Of a stretch of 64,000 nt of DNA, positions 45,256-57,970 are shown piece by piece. The stretch is from Microtetraspora glauca (GTDB lineage: Bacteria > Actinomycetota > Actinomycetes > Streptosporangiales > Streptosporangiaceae), in contig BBYL01000017.1 of assembly GCA_001570385.1 (NCBI GenBank), positions 62,001 to 126,000 on the forward strand. Direction: 5' to 3'. Position 1 is the first letter of the stretch. Each line of letters opens with the position of its first letter. The notes beneath the pieces were generated by a model, which was not told the origin of the DNA, did not search any database, and saw only the letters and a program-made list of their open reading frames with translations. The position numbers and the translations under genes are program-made.

Positions 45256-45298
45256 GCGGCGCGGGTGCCCTTTCGGACATGGCAGCCCAGGCACATGG

Positions 45299-45378
45299 CT
45301 GCCCAGACACATACCTGCCTAGGCACATACCTGTCTAGGCACATACCTGCCCAGGCACATGACTGCCCAGGCAGCGGC
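45299..45378 (+). repeat. 16-bp tandem repeat, five copies
   Basis: AGGCACATACCTGCCC-type units start at 45299, 45315, 45331, 45347 and 45363 with one to three changes each. They fill the 130-bp gap between the convergent lhr and E2 genes. Each unit contains AGGCACAT...TGCCC(A), an imperfect dyad, so the array may fold into stacked hairpins and act as a terminator. Confidence 0.9.
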
Positions 45379-45385
45379 CCGGTCC

Positions 45386-46726
45386 TCACGGTGACCGTCG
45401 GACGACCTCCTCCGGCGCCTCCAGCAGGGCCTTGAGCGCGCGGAGGAACAGCGCGGCGTCCCTGCCGTTGATCAGCCGGTGGTCATAGGCCAGGCCGATA
45501 TCGGCGACGGTCCTGCTGACCACCTCACCCGCTTCGAGCCGGAGCACGGCCTGGGGCGCCGTCACCGCGAGCGCGCACACGTGCCCCGGGAAGATCAGTG
45601 GGATCGCGAGCGTGACATCCCCGTCGTGGTGCAGGGTCACGACGATGTTGGCCCCGGTCAGGTCGTTCTCGCGGAAGTCCCCTGTGACCGCGGCCAGGCG
45701 GTACTCCATCAGGCGATTCGCGACATCCCGCACCGATCGCCCGGCGGCGTCGTGGATGACGGGCACGTAGAGTCCCGCACCGGTGTCGATCGTGACGCCG
45801 ATATGCGGGGCTTCCGCCATCATGGCCGAGTTCTCATCGACGATCGTGGCGTAGAACAGCGGGAACGTCGCGTGGAGCCGGGCCACCGCGCAGGTCACGA
45901 GTTCGGGCAGGCCGACGGGCCGCCTGATCTCCCTGGTCAGCTGGGCGGCCATCTCCAGCCCCGCCCCGACGTCGATCTTCATCACCGTGTACGCCGCCGG
46001 GATGGTCTCGTGTGATGAGCGCACCGCCCTCGCCACCGCCCGCTGCACACGCGAGAGCGCGTACGGCACACCCGCCACGCCGGAGGCGGGATCGGGAGGC
46101 GCCCCGCCGGAGGCGGGATCGGGAGGTGTCACGCGATCGGCCACCAGCCGTTCGACGTCCGCGGTGCGGACGACCGGAACGCCGAGAGCGCGCACCTCCT
46201 CCGGATCGATGCCGAGTTCGTCGATCAACTCCTGTGCGGGCACGGTGATCAGTGGTTCATGGGACGGCCCCCCACCGGACACCGCCCCCGTCCCAGCCGC
46301 CGCCATCCAGGGCGCCCCCGTCCCGGGCGCCCCCGTCCCGGCCGCCCCTGTCGCAGTCTCCCCCGTCCGGGAGGCGGAACCCGCCCCGGAGGCCGAATCC
46401 GTCCCAGACGTGGAACTCACCTTGGACACGGCACCCGCACCGGGCGCGGAGCCGCGGTCGGCCGTACCCGGCGGCGTGGGTGACGGCCGCTCTCCTCCGG
46501 TGGTGATACGGGCGATCACGGCGCCGGGCGGGCAGTCGGCGTTCACCGGGAGTTCCCGCCACACGAAGCCGTCTTCCTCGGCGACGAGTTCCTCCGTGGC
46601 CTTGGACGTCTCCAGGAGCACGATGGGATCGCCCGCCTCGGCCCGCTGCCCGTCCTCGACGAGCCACTCGACGAGGACGTACGCGGTGTCGTTGCTGTTG
46701 AGCTTCGGCACCCGGATATCAGTCAC
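45386..46726 (-). CDS. 2-oxoacid dehydrogenase E2-like lipoyl acyltransferase of the NRPS cluster
   Basis: 446 residues from GTG 46726, which overlaps the E1 stop by 8 bp and has GGAGG 6 nt upstream. Lipoyl domain 1-80 with Lys42 in LLETSKATEEL; a Gly/Ala/Thr-rich repeat linker (about 90-165); a peripheral-subunit binding domain (LIDELGIDPEEVRALG, about 180-215); catalytic acyltransferase domain about 245-446. The active-site motif reads YDHRLINGRDA: His416 is kept, but the usual Asp of HRxxDG is Asn420. Last gene of a four-gene operon with E1, a condensation-carrier protein and an adenylating enzyme. It may pass an acyl group from E1 to a carrier protein rather than CoA (inference). Confidence 0.85.
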   Translation of the reverse strand: MTDIRVPKLNSNDTAYVLVEWLVEDGQRAEAGDPIVLLETSKATEELVAEEDGFVWRELPVNADCPPGAVIARITTGGERPSPTPPGTADRGSAPGAGAVSKVSSTSGTDSASGAGSASRTGETATGAAGTGAPGTGAPWMAAAGTGAVSGGGPSHEPLITVPAQELIDELGIDPEEVRALGVPVVRTADVERLVADRVTPPDPASGGAPPDPASGVAGVPYALSRVQRAVARAVRSSHETIPAAYTVMKIDVGAGLEMAAQLTREIRRPVGLPELVTCAVARLHATFPLFYATIVDENSAMMAEAPHIGVTIDTGAGLYVPVIHDAAGRSVRDVANRLMEYRLAAVTGDFRENDLTGANIVVTLHHDGDVTLAIPLIFPGHVCALAVTAPQAVLRLEAGEVVSRTVADIGLAYDHRLINGRDAALFLRALKALLEAPEEVVRRSP

Positions 46727-48794
46727 GAAGCGCCTCCAGCACCGCGTCGTAGATAGTGGACTCACGCACGAGCACGCGGCTCTCCAGATGGGCGGCGGCG
46801 GGGATCACGCTGTCGGCGGAGCTGACCTGCCGCACCGGCCCCCGGAGATCCCGCCACATCAGCCGGTGGATCCGGTGCGCGACCTCGCTCCCCCATGTGC
46901 CGCCCGCGGTCCCGTCCTCCACGACCAGTACGGCTCTCGCCCGCCGCAGCCCGGACAGGAGCGGCTCGGTGCCGGAAGTCGCCGGAGAACCAGCGGAACC
47001 AGGCGGACCCGGCCGGTGGGACCCACCGGCCTCAGCGAACCCAGGGCCCCCACCTGAGCCGCCTGAGCCGCCGGAACCACGGAGCGCGTCGAGGGAGCCG
47101 GCCGGGTCGGAGGAGTCGAAGAGGTCGAAGGGATACAGCCGCGAGGGCACGTACAGGCAGCAGGTCACCTCGCGTTCCAGCAGCAGGGCGCGCATGGCAC
47201 GGGTCACCCGGTCCACCATGCCGCCGGGCGCGATGATGACGCAGTCAGCCGCCTCCGGATCGTCGAGGAAGACCCGCGCGACGTCGACTCCCGCGGTCCC
47301 CGCCGTGACCATGTCGTACCGGAACGGTTCGCAGACGTCGTACATCGTCCGGGTGTAGAGCACCTTGTCCTCGAAGAACACGGACGGCTCGCCCGAGGCC
47401 AGCATGGCGTTCATGACCGCGCGGTTGTCGTGGAGCGGTGACATCTCGTAGACCGACAACCCCGGCACGCCGATGAAGTGCTTCTGCATGCTCTGGCTGT
47501 GGGTCGGCCCGTACCCCCGGCCGCCTCCGGTGGGACACCGCACGATCATCCTCATCGGGACGCGGGAGCCGTACATCGAGCCGGATTTGGCGGCGAAGTT
47601 GACGATCTGGTCGAAGGCGAGCGCCACGAAGTCGCCGAACATGATCTCGACGATGGCCGTGTCCCCGCAGAGGGCGAGCCCGGCGGCCAGGCCGGTGATG
47701 CCGGCCTCGCTGATCGGCGTACCGAGCACGCGGCCCGGAAACCGGCTGGACAGCCCCTTCGTGACCTTGAATGCGCCCCCATAGGGGTCGAGGATGTCCT
47801 CGCCGATCACGTACGCCGTCGGGTCGGCCTCCAGGACACCGTGCAGGGCCGCGTTGAGGTTCTCCACTACGCGCATGGATCCCACCTCGACAGCGGACGC
47901 GCGGCGACCTCCTGGACGATCGCCGCGACATGGGCCCGCCGGGCCTCGTCCGCGCGGGTGAACCGGCCGGGATCGGCTTCCGCGTAATCGGCGATGCCAG
48001 TCGTGGGCCTCGGCATCCCGTACGGCTTCGCGGGGACGGGTGTCGTCACCCTTGCTGTGCGGACCGAGCCGGTGGGTCGCGAACTCGACGACCAGCGGCC
48101 GGTTCTCCAGCCGCACCTCGGACAGGAGCGGCGCGAGATCGTCCCTGATCAGGTCGATGTCGGAGGTGTCGATGCCGTGGTGACGCACTCCGAACGCCTG
48201 GGCGCGGGCGCGGATGGTCCCGGCCATCTGGCGGGCGGTCGGGGTGGACTGCGCGATCCCGTTGTTCTCGACGACCACGAGCAACGGCAGCCGCCAAAGT
48301 GAGGCGATGTTGAGCGCCTCGTAGACGGCGCCCTCCCCCCACGTCCCGTCACCGATATACACGCAGGCGAGGGCCCCGGGCGAGGTGTGCTTCAGGTGCA
48401 GCGCCACGCCGGTGGCCACCGGGAGGCTCTCCCCCTGCACACCCGTGGACATGTAGCGGTCGCGGAGGATGTGCTGGCTGCCTCCGACCCCGCGGCAGAC
48501 CGCTCCCTCCCTGCCCAGGATCTCGGCGAGCAGCCCGGCCGGGTCCTCGAACCGCGCGAGGTAGTGGCCGTGCCCCCGATGGTTGCTGAAGACGAAATCC
48601 ATCTCGCCGAGCAGCGGCCGGAGCGCGACCGGCACGTACTCCTGCCCGAGGCAGGTGTGCGTGGTGCCGTTGATCCTCCCCTGGCCGAACAGGTCGAGTA
48701 GGGCCAGTTCGAAGTGCCTGATCAGGAGCAGCAGGTCGAGATCGCCGTCGTCCGGCAACGGCGGGCGGGCGAGTACGGCGGAGGGCTCGGTCAC
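46719..48794 (-). CDS. TPP-dependent 2-oxoacid dehydrogenase E1, alpha and beta in one open frame
   Basis: One 691-codon frame. Residues 1-266 are E1-alpha: HTCLGQEYVPVAL, HRGHGHYLAR and the TPP motif GDG (148-150) to NN (177-178). Residues 307-691 are E1-beta: MRVVENLNAALHGVLE, VIGEDILDPYGGAFKVTKGL, then FGDFVALAFDQIVNFAAK and RRARAVLVVEDGTAGG. The join (267-306) is Arg/Pro-rich and unlike either family, and a different frame encodes a proper alpha C-terminus (see the next entry), so E1-beta probably starts at ATG 47876 on its own. E1-beta has a Gly/Ser-rich insertion near its last third. GTG 48794 overlaps the upstream stop by 4 bp. Substrate unknown: pyruvate-like 2-oxoacid or a ketose phosphate, as in NapB-type systems. 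Confidence 0.82.
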   Translation of the reverse strand: MTEPSAVLARPPLPDDGDLDLLLLIRHFELALLDLFGQGRINGTTHTCLGQEYVPVALRPLLGEMDFVFSNHRGHGHYLARFEDPAGLLAEILGREGAVCRGVGGSQHILRDRYMSTGVQGESLPVATGVALHLKHTSPGALACVYIGDGTWGEGAVYEALNIASLWRLPLLVVVENNGIAQSTPTARQMAGTIRARAQAFGVRHHGIDTSDIDLIRDDLAPLLSEVRLENRPLVVEFATHRLGPHSKGDDTRPREAVRDAEAHDWHRRLRGSRSRPVHPRGRGPAGPCRGDRPGGRRASAVEVGSMRVVENLNAALHGVLEADPTAYVIGEDILDPYGGAFKVTKGLSSRFPGRVLGTPISEAGITGLAAGLALCGDTAIVEIMFGDFVALAFDQIVNFAAKSGSMYGSRVPMRMIVRCPTGGGRGYGPTHSQSMQKHFIGVPGLSVYEMSPLHDNRAVMNAMLASGEPSVFFEDKVLYTRTMYDVCEPFRYDMVTAGTAGVDVARVFLDDPEAADCVIIAPGGMVDRVTRAMRALLLEREVTCCLYVPSRLYPFDLFDSSDPAGSLDALRGSGGSGGSGGGPGFAEAGGSHRPGPPGSAGSPATSGTEPLLSGLRRARAVLVVEDGTAGGTWGSEVAHRIHRLMWRDLRGPVRQVSSADSVIPAAAHLESRVLVRESTIYDAVLEALRD
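47867..47999 (-). other. out-of-frame E1-alpha C-terminus: probable frameshift at about 47987-47996
   Basis: After Trp266 of E1-alpha, the +1-shifted frame reads DYAEADPGRFTRADEARR and continues to RPLSRWDPCA, stopping at TAG 47869-47867. This looks like the usual E1-alpha C-terminal helix, has more G/C third positions than the fused frame, and its stop overlaps ATG 47876 of E1-beta by 10 bp, the same coupling used elsewhere in the operon. Seven bases (CATCGCC on the minus strand) separate the two frames, i.e. one base too many. It may be a true mutation, a sequencing error or recoding. Confidence 0.7.
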
Positions 48795-50467
48795 CGGCCG
48801 CCGTCCATGTCGCCCGGCCCCAGCCCGGCGCGCGCGAGCGCCGTACCGGAAGCGCGCACGGGCACCGCCTCGGAAGCGCGCACGGGCGCCGCCTCGGAAG
48901 CGCGCACGGGCGCCGCCTCGGACGCACTCGCGGACGCCGCCTCGGACGCACTCGCGGACGCCGCCTCGGACGCACTCGCGGACGCGCTCTCCGGGTGCTC
49001 GACGCTCTCCACCACCCCCGCGATCGTCGGCGTGTCGAAGAAGACGTCGAGCGGCACCTCGATGCCCAGGCGCTTGCGCATCCGGGCGATGATCTGGGTG
49101 ATCGTGAGCGAGTGGCCGCCGAGGTCGAAGAGGTCCTCGTCGTCACCGATCTCGTCGATGCCGAGAACTTCCTGCCAGATGACTCTGATCTCGTCGGCGA
49201 GGCCGGCCGGTTCGGCATGGCCGTCGCCCGACAAGATGTCCCCGAGCGCCGAGTCCGGATTCTTCATGATCGTTGTGAGGTCCTTCGCTATCTGGGTGAC
49301 CCCCGAGAGGGTGCGCGGGTTGTACTGCAGCGTCACGTCGAGACCGTCGGGGCCGTCGACCGCCTGGATGTGCAGGACGCTGCGGACGGAGCGGTTGAAG
49401 AGCGCCCACTCGACCGTGGCCCGAAGCCCGGCGAACTCGGGCGCGGACCCCCGCCTGCGGTAGCTCACCGAGACGGGCGCCATCGCCGTACGCGGCCGGA
49501 GACCGCGGACGGCCCGGGCGAGGGGTACCGGCCGGAACCGGTACATCCGCCGCAGTTCCGTGTGGAGCCAGGCGGCGAGTTCGGCGAGGGTCAGGCGCGG
49601 CGACGGCGTCGACGCCACCGGCAGTTCGTTGACGAAAAGCCCGATGTGATCGCGGCTCTCGGGCGTCCGCGTCGACATGTCGACCGCGCACACAGGGTCC
49701 GCGTTGCCGTACGCGAACAGCAGGGCGTGCACGGACGCCAGGAACAGCTCGAAACGCGAAAATCCCGGCGCGCCGGGCGCGCCACCCGCATCCGGGACGT
49801 GCCCCAGGTCGCCGAGGAAGGCGTGAACCGCACCCTCCTCCGCCCCTCGCGACCGTCCCGGCCGATCCGCCGGGGCAGAGAGGCCGCGCAGGACCACGTC
49901 CGCGGGTTCCCGCCAGCGGCTCCGCCAGAACTCGCGCGCGTCGCCGAGGAGTCCCGCGACCCGCTCGCGCTCGGCCGCCGCGTGGTCGGCGTACGTCCCC
50001 TGGAGTGGCGTGACCGGGGATCCGTTGTAGAGCGCGGCGAGATCGCGGACCAGGATGTCCTTGGACTCGCCGTCGAAGACCAGGTGGTGGGCCACGATGA
50101 TCAGGACGTGCCGGGCGGGGCCGACCCGGGCGAGCCGGAACCGGGCCAGCGGCCCTCTCCCGATGTCGAACGGCCGCAGGATCTCCTCGCGGACCAGGTC
50201 GTCGACATCTCCCGCGAGGGTCACGTCCACGCTCGGAGGGGCTCCGGGCACCTCCACCGGAACGCCGTCGCGCTCCACGATCGCGGTCGAGAGGACGGGA
50301 TGACGCCTGATCAGCGCCTCACACGCCCGGACCAGCCTGGGGGCGTCCAAGAGCCCGTCAAAGGTGACCAGCAGCGGCATGCGATACGCCGAACCGGCCC
50401 GGCCCATGCGCTCGGTGATCCACATCCCGACCTGGGCGAACGACGCCTGCGCCGGAGCGGTGCTCAT
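48791..50467 (-). CDS. NRPS condensation domain-peptidyl carrier protein
   Basis: 558 residues from ATG 50467. Condensation domain 1-415 with the catalytic motif HHLVFDG (His127, His128, Asp132); carrier domain 420-495 with DLFDLGGHSLTITQI, Ser453 as phosphopantetheine site. The last about 60 residues are Ala/Ser/Glu octapeptide repeats (ASASEAAS, then VRASEAAP) from a 24-bp DNA repeat. Start and stop overlap both neighbours by 4 bp. It probably receives an acyl group activated by the upstream ligase or delivered by the E1/E2 pair; which of the two is not shown by the sequence. Confidence 0.92.
   Translation of the reverse strand: MSTAPAQASFAQVGMWITERMGRAGSAYRMPLLVTFDGLLDAPRLVRACEALIRRHPVLSTAIVERDGVPVEVPGAPPSVDVTLAGDVDDLVREEILRPFDIGRGPLARFRLARVGPARHVLIIVAHHLVFDGESKDILVRDLAALYNGSPVTPLQGTYADHAAAERERVAGLLGDAREFWRSRWREPADVVLRGLSAPADRPGRSRGAEEGAVHAFLGDLGHVPDAGGAPGAPGFSRFELFLASVHALLFAYGNADPVCAVDMSTRTPESRDHIGLFVNELPVASTPSPRLTLAELAAWLHTELRRMYRFRPVPLARAVRGLRPRTAMAPVSVSYRRRGSAPEFAGLRATVEWALFNRSVRSVLHIQAVDGPDGLDVTLQYNPRTLSGVTQIAKDLTTIMKNPDSALGDILSGDGHAEPAGLADEIRVIWQEVLGIDEIGDDEDLFDLGGHSLTITQIIARMRKRLGIEVPLDVFFDTPTIAGVVESVEHPESASASASEAASASASEAASASASEAAPVRASEAAPVRASEAVPVRASGTALARAGLGPGDMDGGR
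48843..48986 (-). repeat. 24-bp in-frame tandem repeat array, about six units
   Basis: Units start at 48867, 48891, 48915, 48939 and 48963, with a partial one before. Two variants occur in blocks: GCCTCGGAAGCGCGCACGGG and GCCTCGGACGCACTCGCGGA, each completed by 4 bases. They encode the C-terminal tail of the condensation-carrier protein. Confidence 0.9.
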
Positions 50468-52089
50468 GAGCGCGCCCGCAACGCCCGTTTGTCCACCTTG
50501 CCGCCATGGTTCCTGGGCAGCGCCTCCAGGGTCACGATCTCGGAGGGGATCTCGTGCCGAGCCAGCCGGTCGCCGAGGAAGGCCCGCAGCGCGGGCAACG
50601 ACACCTCATTGGCCTCGGCACCGCCCCTGCCGCTTTCCCCTGTACCGCTCTCGGCACCGCCCGTGCCACCGCTCTCGGCACCGCCCGTGCCACCGCTCTC
50701 GGCACCGCCCGCGCCACCGCCCGTGCCACCGCCCGCGCCACCGCTCTCGGCGCCGCCCGCCGGGCCGCGCCCCCAACCTCCCCGGTCCGGTGGCTCCCCG
50801 GGAGCCCGCACCACGACGGCCGCCGCGACGGCCGTACCGAGGACGGGGTGGGGAACGCCGTACACGGCGGCCTCCCTCACGGCGGGATGCGCGTGAAGCG
50901 CCTCCTCGACCTTGAGCGTGGAGACCTTGAACGCGCCCGACTTGATCACGTCGCTCTCCCTGTCGACCAGGTAGAGGTAGCCGTCGTCGTCGATGTAGCC
51001 GAGATCGCCCATCCGGATCCAGCCGTCCTTGAAGACGTCGGAGGCGACCGGGGAATCGTTGTAGTACGCGCGGGGCGCGGCGGGCGAGCGCATCCACACC
51101 TCACCGGTCTCTCCGGGAGGTAGCGCGTCGCCGTGGGACGAGGTGATCCGGACGTCGCCGCCCGCGGCCGCCCTGCCGACGGAACCCGGCCGGTCCGGAT
51201 CGACGATCATGATCGTCTGGGCCGGCGCCGCCTCGGTCGAGGTGTAGTAGTTAGTGATCGTCGCGTTGGGGAACATTCCGGCCAGCCCGGTGGCGACCGC
51301 CGCCGGCAGCGGCGCGGCGGCAGAGCCGAGCAGCAGCACGCTGGACAGGTCGTGGCTCCCCCGGTGGCCCAGCAGCTCGATGGCCATCGCGGGGACCACG
51401 AACACCGTCCCGGCACGATGTTCCGCGATGAGCCGCGCGAAGCGATCAGGTGTGAAGCGCGGCAGGGTCACCACGGCCGGATGCGCGTTGAGCGCGTTGA
51501 CCAGCATCATCTGCCCCGCGTTCGTCCCGATCGGGAAGGCGTGCACCAGGTGCCGCGAATGGGCGAACATCCTCAGGGCCGGGCGGCGCGGCCGGAGGAG
51601 CGCGCCGAAGGCCAGGTTGGCGTGTGTGGCGGCGACGCCCTTGGCCGTCCCCGTGGTGCCCGAGGTGTAGAGGATCTGCGCGAGGGCGTCACGCCCGGTT
51701 CGCGCGTCGGGCGGCTCCGCCGCGCCCCCAGGTAGATCGCCCAGATCCCTGATGATCATGGATGCCGAACAGTGCGCCGCGATCCGTCCGACCTCCGCGA
51801 CCGGTGTCCGGTCCGGCAGAGGTACGGCCACCGCGCCCGCCTTGAGCACTCCGATGAATGCGATCGCATAGTCGATCCAGCGCGCGCCAGGAAAGATCAG
51901 TCCGATCCGTTCGCCGTTCCGCACGCCCATGGAGAGCAACGCGTTGGCGACGGCGTTCGACCGCACCTCCCACTCCTCGAAGGTCAACTCACCGACCCCG
52001 TGAACGATCATCGCGACCGCGTGGGGTTCGGCCGCCGCCCTGGCCGCGAGCAGGCGGGGAAGCGTCGGGAATTCGATCGCAGTTCTCAC
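50464..52089 (-). CDS. stand-alone adenylate-forming enzyme (acyl/aryl-acid or amino acid ligase)
   Basis: 541 residues from GTG 52089 (GGAGG 6 nt upstream). ANL-superfamily motifs: YTSGTTGTAKG (141-151), NYYTSTEAAP (A5), GEVWMRSPAAPRAYYN, GWIRMGDLGYIDDDGYLYLV (A7) and the C-terminal catalytic Lys531 in HGGKVDK. The A4 region (HAFPIGTNAG) lacks the Asp that holds the alpha-amino group in NRPS A domains, so a fatty, aryl or hydroxy acid is more likely than an amino acid. The hinge before the C-terminal subdomain is swollen by Gly/Ala/Glu/Ser repeats (about 445-482). First gene of the minus-strand operon; probably loads Ser453 of the next protein. Confidence 0.9.
   Translation of the reverse strand: MRTAIEFPTLPRLLAARAAAEPHAVAMIVHGVGELTFEEWEVRSNAVANALLSMGVRNGERIGLIFPGARWIDYAIAFIGVLKAGAVAVPLPDRTPVAEVGRIAAHCSASMIIRDLGDLPGGAAEPPDARTGRDALAQILYTSGTTGTAKGVAATHANLAFGALLRPRRPALRMFAHSRHLVHAFPIGTNAGQMMLVNALNAHPAVVTLPRFTPDRFARLIAEHRAGTVFVVPAMAIELLGHRGSHDLSSVLLLGSAAAPLPAAVATGLAGMFPNATITNYYTSTEAAPAQTIMIVDPDRPGSVGRAAAGGDVRITSSHGDALPPGETGEVWMRSPAAPRAYYNDSPVASDVFKDGWIRMGDLGYIDDDGYLYLVDRESDVIKSGAFKVSTLKVEEALHAHPAVREAAVYGVPHPVLGTAVAAAVVVRAPGEPPDRGGWGRGPAGGAESGGAGGGTGGGAGGAESGGTGGAESGGTGGAESGTGESGRGGAEANEVSLPALRAFLGDRLARHEIPSEIVTLEALPRNHGGKVDKRALRARS
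50644..50755 (-). repeat. 24-bp in-frame tandem repeat in the adenylating enzyme
   Basis: ACCGCTCTCGGCACCGCCCG plus TGCC recurs at 50644, 50668 and 50692, followed by 12-bp half-units. It encodes GGAESGGT-type repeats in the hinge between the two ligase subdomains. Confidence 0.9.
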
Positions 52090-52402: not shown

Positions 52403-55400
52403 ATGCTTGCCATCTCTGACATTCCGCTGTCCCTCGGCCAGGAACGGCTGTGGTTCCTGCACGAGCTGAACCCGGACGACGCCTCCTACAACATCTGCGT
52501 CACCGAGCGGCTTCGCGGACCGCTCGACGCCGTCGCGCTGGAGCGCGCCCTCGGCGCGGTCGTACGGCGGCACGAGGTGCTGCGGACCCGCTACCCCTCC
52601 GTGGACGGCAGGCCCGTGCAGGTGATCGACGACGCCGTCCCCGTGCTCGAACGCGTCGCCGCGTCACGCGAGGACCGGGCCGCCGAACTCGTCGCCGAGC
52701 TGACCAACCGGCCGTTCGACCTCGCCCGCGGCCCGGTGATCCGGGCCCGCCTGATCACGCTCACCGGAGGCGACGGCGCCGACGGCGGCATCGAAGACCA
52801 TGCCGAAGACCATGCCGAAGACAACGCCGCCGACAGCACCGACGACAGCGCGGCGAACGAGCAGGGCGGGCCCCGCACCGAGCACATCCTGGTCGTCGTC
52901 CTGCACCACATCGCGGGCGACGGCTGGTCACTCGGGGTGTTGTTCCGCGAGCTGGCCGCCCATTACGAGGCCTTCCTGAACGGCACGCCGCCCCGCGTCC
53001 CCGACCTGCCCATGCGGTACGCCGATCATGCGATCCGCCAGCGTGCCCGGGACCACGCCCAGGAGCATGACCGCTCGCTGGACCACTGGAAGGAACGGCT
53101 GGCCGGGGTGCCCGTCCTCGCCCTGCCCACCGACCGGCCGCGTCCCCGGACGAGGAGTTCGCGGGGCGGCTGCGTCACACGCGAACTGCCGGCCACCCTG
53201 ACGGACCGGCTCACACGGCTGGCACGGGCCCAGCGGGTCACCCTGTTCATGCTGCTGCTCGCCGCGTTCCAGACAGAGCTGTCCCGCTACTCGGGCCAGA
53301 TCGATTTCTGCGTGGGCTCCCCGGTGGCCGCCAGGGACGACGAGGACACCGAGCACCTGATCGGCTTCTTCCTCAACACGCTCGCCATCAGGACCGACCT
53401 CTCCGGCGATCCCTCCTTCAGGGAGGTGCTCCGCCGTACCCGCTCGACCGTGGTGGAGGCGCTGGTCCACCAGGGCACGCCGTTCGACCGGCTGGTCACC
53501 GAGCTCGGCGTCGAACGCGACCTGAGCCGGACTCCGGTCTTCCAGACGCAGTTCAGCCTGCGTAGCGAGGCGAACGACGGCCCCGTCCTCGCCGGGGTCA
53601 CCGCCGAGCGGTACGACCCGGGGTTCCGGCAGGCGAAGTTCGACCTGTCGCTGGAGATCCTCCCGTCCGGGGACGTCCTCAAGGCATTCTTCGTCTACAG
53701 CGCCGACCTCTTCCACAGGGCGACCGTCGAACGGTTCGCCGCGAACTTCGAGACCCTCCTGTGGTCCGTCGTCACCGACCCGGACACGCGGATCTCCGAA
53801 CTGGAGCTGATCGCGCCCGACGAGCGGAAGGTCATCGCCGGTTGCAGCGCGTGCCCGACCGTTCCCGAACCGCCCGCACCGACGCTTCCCGAGATGGTCG
53901 CCGCCACGGCTCGCCGCTCCCCCGGAACCGTGGCCGTGCGGTACGGCGACGCCGAGTTGACCTACGCCGAGCTGGCCGCGCGCGCCGGAGGGCTGGCGGC
54001 ACGGCTCAGGGATCTCGGCGTCGGGCCCGACGTTCGCGTGGGCATCTGCCTGGAACAGTCGATCGACCAGGCGGTGGCCATCCTCGGCGTGCTGAAGGCG
54101 GGCGGGGCGTACGTGCCGCTCGATCCGGAGCAGCCCGGGGAGCGGCTGCGGCACATGCTCGAAGGCGCGGCCGTACTGATCGCCAGGACCGGTGGTGACG
54201 GCGCCCGGGGCGCTCCGGGCGCCCATGGCTCCCTGGACGGCGGAACAGCCGTTCCGCCGGGGCCGGACTTCGCTGGACCGGTGATCGACCCGGGCGACCC
54301 GGGCATCCCGCGTGCGGGCACAGGGCAGTTGGGCACAGGGCAGTTGGGCACAGGGCAGGCGACCACAGGGCGGGTGGGCACGGAGGAAGGAAGCACGGGT
54401 GACGGGGGAGCCGACGCCGCCGCCCCGTGGCCGCCTCCGTCGCCCGACGACCTCGCCTACGTCATCTACACGTCCGGATCGACCGGGCGGCCCAAGGGCG
54501 TGTCCGTACAGCACAGGCAGGTCATGAACTACCTGGCGGACGTGCACGAGAGGTTCGGCGTCGCCGAGGGCCGGAGCTTCGCCCTGCTCCAGTCGCTCAC
54601 GTTCGACTTCGGCATGACCGTGTTCTACCTGTCGCTGATGACCGGGGGCACGCTCCACATGCTGCCCTCGCGCATCTCCGCGCCCGAGCTGGCGGCGTCC
54701 ATGCCGGGGATCGACTACCTCAAGATGACGCCCTCACACCTCGGCGCGCTGGCGGCGGACGTGGACGTGCGTGCGCTCCTCCCGAGGCGGCTGCTGATCC
54801 TGGGCGGTGAGGGGTCGAGCTGGGAATGGGCCCGCGGGCTGGCCGCGCTCGGCGCCTGCCAGGTGGTCAACCACTACGGCCCCACCGAGGCGACCATCGG
54901 CGTCACCACCTACCAGGTCGGAGCGGACGTCGAACCCACGGGGCCGATCACGCCGATCGGGCGGCCGCTCGGCCACGCACGGATCCTCGTCCTCGACGCG
55001 CACCTGCGGCCGGTGCCGGTCGGCGTGCCGGGCGAACTGTGCGTCGGCGGCGACCGGCTGGCCCGCGGATACCTCGGCAGGCCCGACCTCACCGCCGCCG
55101 CGTTCGTCGAGTCCGAACGGCACGGCCGGATCTATCGCACCGGCGACCTGGCCCGATGGCTGCCGGACGGCACCCTCGAGTTCCTCGGCCGCCGCGACCT
55201 CCAGGTCAAGATCCGCGGATACCGGGTCGAGCTCGGCGAGGTGGACGAGGCCCTGCGGCTGTGTCCGGGCGTCGCCCACGCCGTGACCGACGCGCGAGGG
55301 GGCGAGCTGGTCGCGTACCTGGTGGCCGGCGACGTGGCTGACAACGTAGCTGGCAACGCGGCCACCGGGGCGGGTCGGCCCGGCGTCGCTGAGCTGCGCC

Positions 55401-57970
55401 GGGACCTCGGCACCCGGCTGCCCGACTACATGGTGCCGACCCGCTATGTCTGGCTGGACGAACTGCCGCTGAAGGGACACGGCAAGGTCGACCGGGCAGC
55501 GCTGCCCGACCCGGAGGGCGACCGTCCGGACCAGGAGGTGCCCTTCGAGCCGCCGGCGGACGAGGTCGAGGCGATCATCGCCGCGGCGTGGTGCGATGTG
55601 CTCGGCCTGCGCCAGGTGGGCGTGCTGGACGACTTCTTCGACCTCGGCGGTCACTCGCTGCTGGCCACCCGCGTGGTGGCCCGTCTGCGCCGCGAGTTGC
55701 CGCCCGGCGGCCATCCGATCGGCCTCATGGACCTCTTCCAGCGGACCACGGTCAGGGAGTTGGCCGAACTGGCGAGGAGCGGCGCCGGCCCGCGCGGCCT
55801 GCTGTACGAGCTGACCGCGCCGCGTTCGGGGCAGGTGACGTGCACCCTGGTCTGCGTGCCGTACGGCGGGGGAAGCGCGGTCGTCTACCAGCCGCTGGCC
55901 GACGCGCTTGAGGAGACGTGGACCCTGTTCTCGGTCGCCGTCCCGGGACACGATCTCGGGCTGGCCGAGGAACCGCGCCCGCTTGAGGAGGTCGCGGAGC
56001 GGTGCGTCGAGGAGATCGCGGAGAAGGTGACCGGACCGCTGGTGCTGTACGGCCACTGCGGAGTCGGAGGCGCGCTGACCGTCGAGATCGCCCGGCGGCT
56101 GGAGGCCAGGGGAAGGGCGGTGGAGGCCGTCTACATGGGCGGCGTGTTCCCCTTCGCCCGTCCGGTCAAGGGGCTGATGGGCCGGTGGGCCGCGCTCACC
56201 CGGCTGGAGCGGCTGCGCAGCGACCGGGCGGAGCTCAACTGGCTGACCGCGCTCGGAGCCGATCTGTCGGAGCTGGACGACGACCAGAAGGCGTTCGTCA
56301 TCCGCAACATGCGGCATGACGCCCGGGAGGCCGAGGAGTATTTCACCCGGCTGATCGAGGAGGGCGCCGACCGGCTGTCCGCGCCGATCATCTCGGTCGT
56401 CGGCGAGTACGACCCGGCCACCGACTACTACGAGGAGCGCTATCGGGAGTGGGGGTTCCTGACCGGCACGACCGCTCTGGTCGTCCTGGAGGAAGGTGGC
56501 CACTATTTCCTGAAATATCGAGCGAACGAGTTGGCGGCCGTCGTCACCGGCACCCATCGGCGGCTCCCGGCCGTCCTCGGCGGTGCCGCCCTGACGGCGG
56601 ACCCCGGTCAGCCGCCGACACCGGATCACGCGGCGGACCCCGGTCAGACGGGGGAACCGGATCGCACGGCAGGACCCGGCCGCACGGCAGGACCCGGTCA
56701 AGTGGCCGGACCCGAGCCGACGGTACGCCGATTCCTGACGGTCGCCCTGGGCCAGATGGCCTGCCTGATCGGCTCCACGCTGACCGAGTTCGCGATCCCG
56801 GTGTGGATGTACCTCAGGACCGGATCCATGACGCAGTACGCGGTGCTCCAGATCCTGGCCGTGATCCCGGGCATCCTGGCGGCCCCCCTCGCGGGCGCGA
56901 TCGTGGACCGGTCGAACCGCCGCACGGTGATGATCACAGGTAACGCGGCCGCGCTGGCGATCCAGTCGACGGCCGCGCTGCTCCTGTGGGCCGGCCACCT
57001 CGGCACCTGGCCGCTGTACGGCCTGCTGACCGCTCTGTCCGTCGCGCTGACCTTCCAACGGCTGGCGTTCACCTCGGCCGTGCCGCAACTCGTGCCGAAG
57101 CGCTACCTCGGGCACGCGAACGGCGTCGCGCAGACGACCCTGGGCGTCGCGCAGTTCATCGCGCCGCTGGCCGCCGTGGGCCTCCTGTCGGCGGCGGGGC
57201 TCCAGGGCATCCTCGTACTCGACGTGGTCGGACACGTGTTCACGCTGCTCGTCCTGGCGCTCGTGGCCTTCCCCGCGACGATGGCGCACCGCCGGAGGGA
57301 GGCCGTCGTCCGGCAGATCGCGGAGGGGTTCCGGCTGTCGATGGGCGACCGGAGCTTCCGCGCCATGGTGATCTTCTTCGCTCTGCTGTCGCTCGGCCTG
57401 TCGCCGGTCTTCATGATGTACTCGCCGCTGGTGCTGTCCTTCGGCACCCTGGCGGACGCGGGTGCGATCGCGCTCGTCGCGGGCGCGGGCGCGGTGGCCG
57501 GCGGTCTGACGATGGCCGTGTGGGGAGGTCCCGCACGCGGGCGGATGCGCGGGATGCTGCTCGCCACGTCGCTCATCGCCGCGTCCTGCCTGGTCGTGGG
57601 GCTCGACACCTCGCTGGTCATGATCGGCGTGGGCGCCTTCGGGGTGTCGTACGGGCTGGCCCTGGTCAACGGCATCTACACGACGATCATCCAGGTGAAG
57701 GTGCCGCAGCGGTTCCACGGCCGGGTGTTCGCGCTCAACCAGATGGTCGCCTGGTCGACGATCCCGCTCGGGGTCGGCGTGATCGCCCCGCTGGGCACCC
57801 GACTGCTCGGCGACATCGGCACGATGTACGTGGTGTTCGGCGGGTTCATCGCGGCCGTCGTGCTCGTCTCGCTCCGCGTCCGCGTCCTGGCCCGGTTCGA
57901 CGACGAGGTCCCGGACGCCACCCCCGACGATCTCGTCGGACTCGAACGGCGATCTCGGAAGCCGGCATGA
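52403..57970 (+). CDS. NRPS (C-A-PCP-TE) fused to an MFS exporter
   Basis: 1855 residues. C domain 5-470 with HHIAGDG (168-174); A domain 490-1040 with YTSGSTGRPKG (689-699), NHYGPTEATIG and Lys1028; PCP with GGHSLL, Ser1085; thioesterase about 1140-1385; linker of TAGPGR repeats; MFS transporter of about 10-12 helices from 1441 to 1840 (RRFLTVALGQMACLIG, GAIVDRSNRRTVM). A-domain specificity residues by GrsA alignment read D-F-T-K-I-G-H-I-G-K, close to Asp codes. The thioesterase nucleophile motif is GHCGVGG (Cys1219), with Asp1337 and His1367 completing the triad. Asp/Glu- and Thr/Gly-rich repeats are inserted in the C and A domains. The stop overlaps the ACP start (ATGA). Confidence 0.93.
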   Translation: MLAISDIPLSLGQERLWFLHELNPDDASYNICVTERLRGPLDAVALERALGAVVRRHEVLRTRYPSVDGRPVQVIDDAVPVLERVAASREDRAAELVAELTNRPFDLARGPVIRARLITLTGGDGADGGIEDHAEDHAEDNAADSTDDSAANEQGGPRTEHILVVVLHHIAGDGWSLGVLFRELAAHYEAFLNGTPPRVPDLPMRYADHAIRQRARDHAQEHDRSLDHWKERLAGVPVLALPTDRPRPRTRSSRGGCVTRELPATLTDRLTRLARAQRVTLFMLLLAAFQTELSRYSGQIDFCVGSPVAARDDEDTEHLIGFFLNTLAIRTDLSGDPSFREVLRRTRSTVVEALVHQGTPFDRLVTELGVERDLSRTPVFQTQFSLRSEANDGPVLAGVTAERYDPGFRQAKFDLSLEILPSGDVLKAFFVYSADLFHRATVERFAANFETLLWSVVTDPDTRISELELIAPDERKVIAGCSACPTVPEPPAPTLPEMVAATARRSPGTVAVRYGDAELTYAELAARAGGLAARLRDLGVGPDVRVGICLEQSIDQAVAILGVLKAGGAYVPLDPEQPGERLRHMLEGAAVLIARTGGDGARGAPGAHGSLDGGTAVPPGPDFAGPVIDPGDPGIPRAGTGQLGTGQLGTGQATTGRVGTEEGSTGDGGADAAAPWPPPSPDDLAYVIYTSGSTGRPKGVSVQHRQVMNYLADVHERFGVAEGRSFALLQSLTFDFGMTVFYLSLMTGGTLHMLPSRISAPELAASMPGIDYLKMTPSHLGALAADVDVRALLPRRLLILGGEGSSWEWARGLAALGACQVVNHYGPTEATIGVTTYQVGADVEPTGPITPIGRPLGHARILVLDAHLRPVPVGVPGELCVGGDRLARGYLGRPDLTAAAFVESERHGRIYRTGDLARWLPDGTLEFLGRRDLQVKIRGYRVELGEVDEALRLCPGVAHAVTDARGGELVAYLVAGDVADNVAGNAATGAGRPGVAELRRDLGTRLPDYMVPTRYVWLDELPLKGHGKVDRAALPDPEGDRPDQEVPFEPPADEVEAIIAAAWCDVLGLRQVGVLDDFFDLGGHSLLATRVVARLRRELPPGGHPIGLMDLFQRTTVRELAELARSGAGPRGLLYELTAPRSGQVTCTLVCVPYGGGSAVVYQPLADALEETWTLFSVAVPGHDLGLAEEPRPLEEVAERCVEEIAEKVTGPLVLYGHCGVGGALTVEIARRLEARGRAVEAVYMGGVFPFARPVKGLMGRWAALTRLERLRSDRAELNWLTALGADLSELDDDQKAFVIRNMRHDAREAEEYFTRLIEEGADRLSAPIISVVGEYDPATDYYEERYREWGFLTGTTALVVLEEGGHYFLKYRANELAAVVTGTHRRLPAVLGGAALTADPGQPPTPDHAADPGQTGEPDRTAGPGRTAGPGQVAGPEPTVRRFLTVALGQMACLIGSTLTEFAIPVWMYLRTGSMTQYAVLQILAVIPGILAAPLAGAIVDRSNRRTVMITGNAAALAIQSTAALLLWAGHLGTWPLYGLLTALSVALTFQRLAFTSAVPQLVPKRYLGHANGVAQTTLGVAQFIAPLAAVGLLSAAGLQGILVLDVVGHVFTLLVLALVAFPATMAHRRREAVVRQIAEGFRLSMGDRSFRAMVIFFALLSLGLSPVFMMYSPLVLSFGTLADAGAIALVAGAGAVAGGLTMAVWGGPARGRMRGMLLATSLIAASCLVVGLDTSLVMIGVGAFGVSYGLALVNGIYTTIIQVKVPQRFHGRVFALNQMVAWSTIPLGVGVIAPLGTRLLGDIGTMYVVFGGFIAAVVLVSLRVRVLARFDDEVPDATPDDLVGLERRSRKPA
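54316..54360 (+). repeat. 15-bp in-frame tandem repeat in the NRPS A domain
   Basis: GGGCACAGGGCAGTT occurs at 54316, 54331 and (ending GC) 54346. It encodes GTGQL repeats in a surface insertion between motifs A2 and A3 (about residues 639-672). Confidence 0.88.

Follow-up and report, generated by a model that had tools for sequence, protein, structure and literature searches.

Probable one-base insertion behind an apparent E1-alpha/E1-beta fusion in Microtetraspora glauca

Why does a single open reading frame (ORF) of Microtetraspora glauca carry both the alpha and the beta part of a 2-oxoacid dehydrogenase E1, when its closest relatives encode them as two genes? The frame (46719-48794, minus strand, 691 codons) lies in a window of 64,000 nucleotides (contig BBYL01000017.1, positions 62,001 to 126,000, assembly GCA_001570385.1) and consists of an E1-alpha-like core followed, across a joint, by an E1-beta-like protein. 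By domain content it is an E1 of the alpha plus beta type, with Pfam scores of 129.1 bits for E1_dh, 82.4 for Transket_pyr and 31.1 for Transketolase_C (cut-offs 22, 27 and 25.9). An earlier note on this DNA had proposed that a one-base frameshift created the fusion. The comparison with relatives bears this out, and a recent, genuine one-base insertion that fused two separate, overlapping genes is probably the explanation. Since close relatives keep the pair apart, the fusion is to be read as an ordinary mutation or a sequencing error, and not as a new kind of protein. The parts of the locus are as follows.

47988-48794, minus strand: E1-alpha core (codons 1-269, beginning with GTG), matched by Pfam E1_dh at 2.1e-37 across residues 24-264, and 91% identical to the alpha protein of Microtetraspora locus L012 (M. 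niveoalba).
47986-47987, minus strand: site of the extra base, either T of a TT pair (DNA alignment with 16 intact relatives; codon counts).
47867-47986, minus strand: true C-terminus of E1-alpha, read in the +1 frame as 39 residues and TAG (matches the tails of loci L012, L013, L014, L017 and L023).
47877-47987, minus strand: out-of-frame Arg/Pro-rich joint, 37 codons (composition, third-position GC content and codon score like those of an out-of-frame read).
46719-47876, minus strand: E1-beta (Transket_pyr and Transketolase_C), its start overlapping the alpha-frame stop by 10 bp.

The core contains a GDG...ENN motif, which we take to be the ThDP (thiamine diphosphate)-binding region. In the continuous frame, the alpha core is linked to beta by LRGSRSRPVHPRGRGPAGPCRGDRPGGRRASAVEVGS, with nine Arg and five Pro among its 37 residues; these two amino acids make up 38% of the joint versus 15% of the alpha part. 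The joint had been described as Arg/Pro-rich and unlike E1, which holds, and as 40 residues long, which does not: the out-of-frame part spans 37 residues because the shift sits just after codon 269 (47986/47987). Over the same stretch, the +1 frame encodes YAEADPGRFTRADEARRAHVAAIVQEVAARPLSRWDPCA, of which AHVAAIVQEVAARPLSR is one peptide, followed by TAG at 47867-47869. This stop overlaps the beta ATG (47874-47876) by the 10 bp first reported. A complete alpha subunit, including its C-terminal helix, is thus present in the +1 frame and not in the continuous one. The GC content at third codon positions (GC3) is 0.85 in the +1 frame and 0.59 in the continuous frame, in agreement with the higher value first noticed for the shifted frame.

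Codon usage separates the two frames as well. Eight other ORFs in the window served to train a codon-usage model, which was scored on 39-codon windows (n = 655 per frame) that overlap and come from these training ORFs; the mean per-codon score was +0.306 in frame, and -0.471 and -0.532 in the two other frames. The joint read in the continuous frame scores -0.486 per codon, as low as none of the 655 in-frame windows. The +1-frame tail scores +0.201, a value reached or exceeded by 78% of the in-frame windows, by 0 of 655 in one of the other frames and by 1 of 655 in the other. The frame contrast at the joint is more than chance would give.

How do relatives arrange the two genes? A scan of one genome per species, in which the 80 top-ranking of 135 candidates were retained, gave 79 distinct loci. 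Alpha and beta are separate in 73 of these and fused in five; in the last (L053) the contig ends before beta. The closest relatives are the Microtetraspora loci L012, L013 and L014 (alpha 89-91%, beta 79-81% identical). In these three nearest orthologues the genes are separate and overlap by 10 bp, as found when the comparison of homologues proposed in the earlier note was run. The overlap is also 10 bp in L017 and L023, and 4 bp in L019-L022. Domains, gene order and the 10-bp overlap of the separate pairs in actinomycete clusters are those of the window, but the pairs of L012, L013, L014, L017, L023 and others lack the extra base that joins the frames. Aligned at the DNA level with 16 intact relatives, the window shows one surplus base, in GATTAC at 47986/47987. 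Just before it, the window reads DWHRR versus DWYRR in L012-L014; past it, the +1 frame aligns residue by residue and free of gaps with the alpha tails of L012-L014, L017 and L023, so that its reading as an E1-alpha-like C-terminus stands. A 23-base junction pattern, with up to two mismatches allowed, matched only this genome among 200 family genomes, a weak test because the relatives carry several substitutions at the site.

The five natural fusions raise the possibility that selection retained the insertion for the benefit of a single-chain E1. The fused frame is indeed open, and its beta part is conserved (81% identity to that of L012). These fusions (L010, L011, L015, L016 and L018, from Kitasatospora and Streptomyces) resemble the window in having alpha and beta in one frame. 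All five retain the alpha tail with an Arg-Pro pair and add an Ala/Pro-rich linker of varying length, whereas the window frame swaps the alpha tail for out-of-frame sequence. In a tree of 81 alpha cores (the 79 loci, the window and the paralogue L004), the fusions form one distant clade (100/100), and the window groups with the three Microtetraspora rows (100/99). By alpha tail, linker and tree position alike, the window lies outside the natural fusion clade. Homologues fused through the same Arg/Pro-rich join, named beforehand as the finding that would speak against a frameshift, were sought in the 79 loci; none of the five fusions shares it, and the join occurs in no locus of the set. A selected functional fusion is therefore improbable.

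Could both products be made deliberately? A programmed +1 slip at CGA-TTA-C would yield authentic alpha as well as the alpha-beta fusion. The extra base creates a TTA, codon 270 of the continuous frame, at the exact position of the shift, and TTA is rare: only seven occur in the 77,947 codons of the 211 called genes of the contig, this one included. The alpha tail is also conserved. The shift is absent from all 79 loci, however, whereas a programmed frameshift should be conserved; the TTA arises automatically when a T is added before TA, and a recent mutation likewise explains the conserved tail. To our knowledge, the site matches no slippery sequence. Programmed recoding is accordingly very improbable, and both it and the selected novel fusion, listed as alternatives in the earlier note, are disfavoured. 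In S. coelicolor, bldA encodes the sole leucyl-tRNA that reads UUA (PMC2000904), and a developmental version of the slip may be imagined in which +1 slippage at TTA, when a bldA-type tRNA is scarce, gives E1-alpha early and the alpha-beta fusion late. It would make a rare codon a developmental control of enzyme architecture, and it is as hard to credit as the slip itself.

It is more difficult to decide whether the base belongs to the cell or to the assembly. A sequencing or assembly error, with E1-alpha and E1-beta intact and separate in the cell, is a possible but distinctly less likely account than a genuine insertion. The genome is a draft of 62 contigs, none of the examined relatives carries the shift, and the other genes of the operon are intact and syntenic with G001. 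The frames of neighbouring genes argue in the other direction. When the genes of the G001 contig, called by codon usage, were compared with the window's contig, 114 of 241 were matched over 43,133 residues and the E1 shift was the sole frame break; it was again the sole break when the comparison was run the other way (111 of 211 genes, 42,503 residues). Since the shift is isolated, the sequence does not appear to be generally error-prone. Furthermore, the extra base falls in a TT pair, not in a homopolymer run, and three window-specific substitutions adjoin it. Through one of them, DWY has acquired a His in place of the Tyr, which is invariant in an alignment of 16 rows; His is found also in L008 and L009.

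Looser frameshift scans had listed three candidates in one direction, and later 12 and nine in the two directions; all except E1 disappeared with codon-model gene calls. Two of them were inspected, one lying between called genes (at about 27463) and the other in an uncalled frame. The remaining candidates were set aside, without individual inspection, as mostly antisense, upstream or mirror frames. A template-switch donor was sought within 300 nt of the insertion, and the single 8-mer inverted match found there is no evidence for one.

The alpha tail bears on the age of the change. Nonsynonymous divergence (dN) over the tail is 0.154 between the window and L012 and 0.183 between the window and L013, versus 0.204 between the intact L012 and L013. 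To L013, L014, L017, L019 and L023 the window has values of 0.125-0.241, lower each time than those of intact L012 (0.181-0.264). The ratio of nonsynonymous to synonymous divergence, over 39 codons only, is 0.68 for window-L012, 0.44 for L012-L013 and 0.64 for L012-L014. By lineage, four residue changes in the tail are specific to the window, three to L012 and three are ambiguous, with no clearly faster change in the window. The tail has not decayed, and the insertion is therefore likely to be recent.

Some of these observations must be weighed against a real insertion. A sequencing error would leave the tail equally free of decay. The frame-break comparison covered one contig, 276 kb of 9.27 Mb. 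As to the substitutions next to the site, they occupy 3 of 11 conserved columns in the preceding 12 nt versus 37 of 790 overall, but the hypergeometric P of 0.012 is modest and was computed after the site was seen, and substitutions are equally dense in one other 12-nt stretch of the alpha gene, close to codon 148. On balance, the isolated frame break and the nature of the site suggest that the extra base is present in the DNA of the cell and not only in the assembly.

How would a genuine insertion give a fusion and not a truncated protein? Inserted after codon 269 of 308, the base would make ribosomes leave the alpha frame. They would enter the E1-beta frame, which is open over the last 37 codons before beta, so that translation would run past the alpha stop and on into beta. 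The product would be an alpha-beta fusion without the C-terminal alpha helix, with some free beta besides if the beta start is still used. Such an outcome would not be peculiar to this site. Because the DNA is GC-rich, stops are few in the beta frame over the tail, and in 14 of the 16 intact relatives this frame has none between the site and the beta start; most +1 changes near the alpha end would therefore fuse the two genes. In GC-rich overlapping genes, a one-base change can thus give an open fusion in place of a truncation. Automatic annotation would call a fused E1 here, which could be counted among the true E1 fusions.

The structural cost is suggested by a model. AlphaFold2 folds the intact L012 alpha protein (mean predicted local distance difference test score, pLDDT, 82.5) with a terminal helix at residues 275-297, where block pLDDT values are 94-98. 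Up to its final residue, the model can be aligned with solved E1-alpha chains, among them 3exe_A (Z 32.9, root-mean-square deviation, rmsd, 2.6 over 300 residues), and with 1umb_C at Z 30.8 and rmsd 2.7 over 300 residues. Judged by this model, the fusion frame would lose helix 275-297, and E1 activity is probably reduced or lost in the fusion. If the mutation is real, the E1/E2-nonribosomal peptide synthetase pathway of the strain may be impaired, which would matter for obtaining its product.

The genome also has a second E1-alpha/E1-beta pair, separate and intact, on contig 34 (L004), with a 4-bp GTGA overlap. Its alpha and beta are 74% and 52% identical to those of the window, and in the tree it groups weakly (94/64) with the natural fusions. 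This pair might or might not substitute for the E1 of the window.

What would the enzyme do? The E1 genes belong to a conserved operon in which E1 and E2 accompany nonribosomal peptide synthetase (NRPS) genes, in the order adenylation (A), condensation-carrier (C-T), E1-alpha, E1-beta and E2, with successive overlaps of 4, 4, 10 and 8 bp. The remaining members are listed here.

45386-46726, minus strand: E2-like acyltransferase, lipoyl domain at the N-terminus (GTG start; 8-bp overlap with the beta stop).
48791-50467, minus strand: condensation plus carrier (T) domain protein (Pfam), overlapping the E1-alpha start by 4 bp.
50464-52089, minus strand: stand-alone AMP-binding (adenylation) protein (Pfam), overlapping the C-T gene by 4 bp.

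For E2, the Pfam matches (2-oxoacid_dh 6.1e-37, Biotin_lipoyl 2e-7) were obtained on a longer ORF from 46765, the gene call starting at 46726. The E1 parts of the window stay far below the NCBIfam cut-offs for canonical pyruvate dehydrogenase E1 (TIGR03182, 178.5 versus 393.85 bits; NF006667, 152.5 versus 321), and so does the intact L012 alpha (185.4).

In the pepteridine locus of Photorhabdus, E1/E2 proteins have been proposed to load a 2-oxoacid-derived acyl group on a carrier protein, replacing coenzyme A (PMC5384830). As in that locus as described, E1, a lipoyl-E2 and C and T domains are encoded together in the window. The arrangement differs, since in the pepteridine description the E2-like subunit carries T and C as fused domains, whereas the window has a separate C-T protein plus a stand-alone A protein. 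By analogy, the function of the operon may resemble E1/E2 acyl loading of the pepteridine type. Among the 14 window ORFs scanned with Pfam, none matched a pterin family. Another comparison is offered by paulomycin, whose Plm8/Plm9 have a proposed role in attaching a two-carbon chain to a deoxysugar (PMC4802897). The likeness lies in separate E1 alpha and beta genes within a biosynthetic cluster, and the difference in the partners, the passages of that report on Plm8/Plm9 making no mention of an E2-NRPS partnership (PMC4802897). Dynaplanin was considered and found to be unrelated, since its likely target is an E2 subunit and none of the five genes described for it is an E1/E2 gene (PMC9239090).

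Around the operon, some further features were observed. On the plus strand, 52403-57970 is one ORF of 1855 residues with condensation, adenylation, carrier and thioesterase domains followed by a major facilitator superfamily (MFS) transporter domain. From end to end the ORF is matched in G001 at 85% identity, and this NRPS-transporter fusion therefore looks real. In-frame 12/24-bp tandem repeats occur at two places: at 48828-48989 they give the C-T protein an Ala/Ser-rich tail, and at 50644-50760 they encode a Gly-rich insert towards the C-terminus of the adenylation protein. About 5.6 copies of a 16-bp unit (45285-45373) lie in the short intergenic space where the E2 gene and a large-helicase (Lhr) gene converge.
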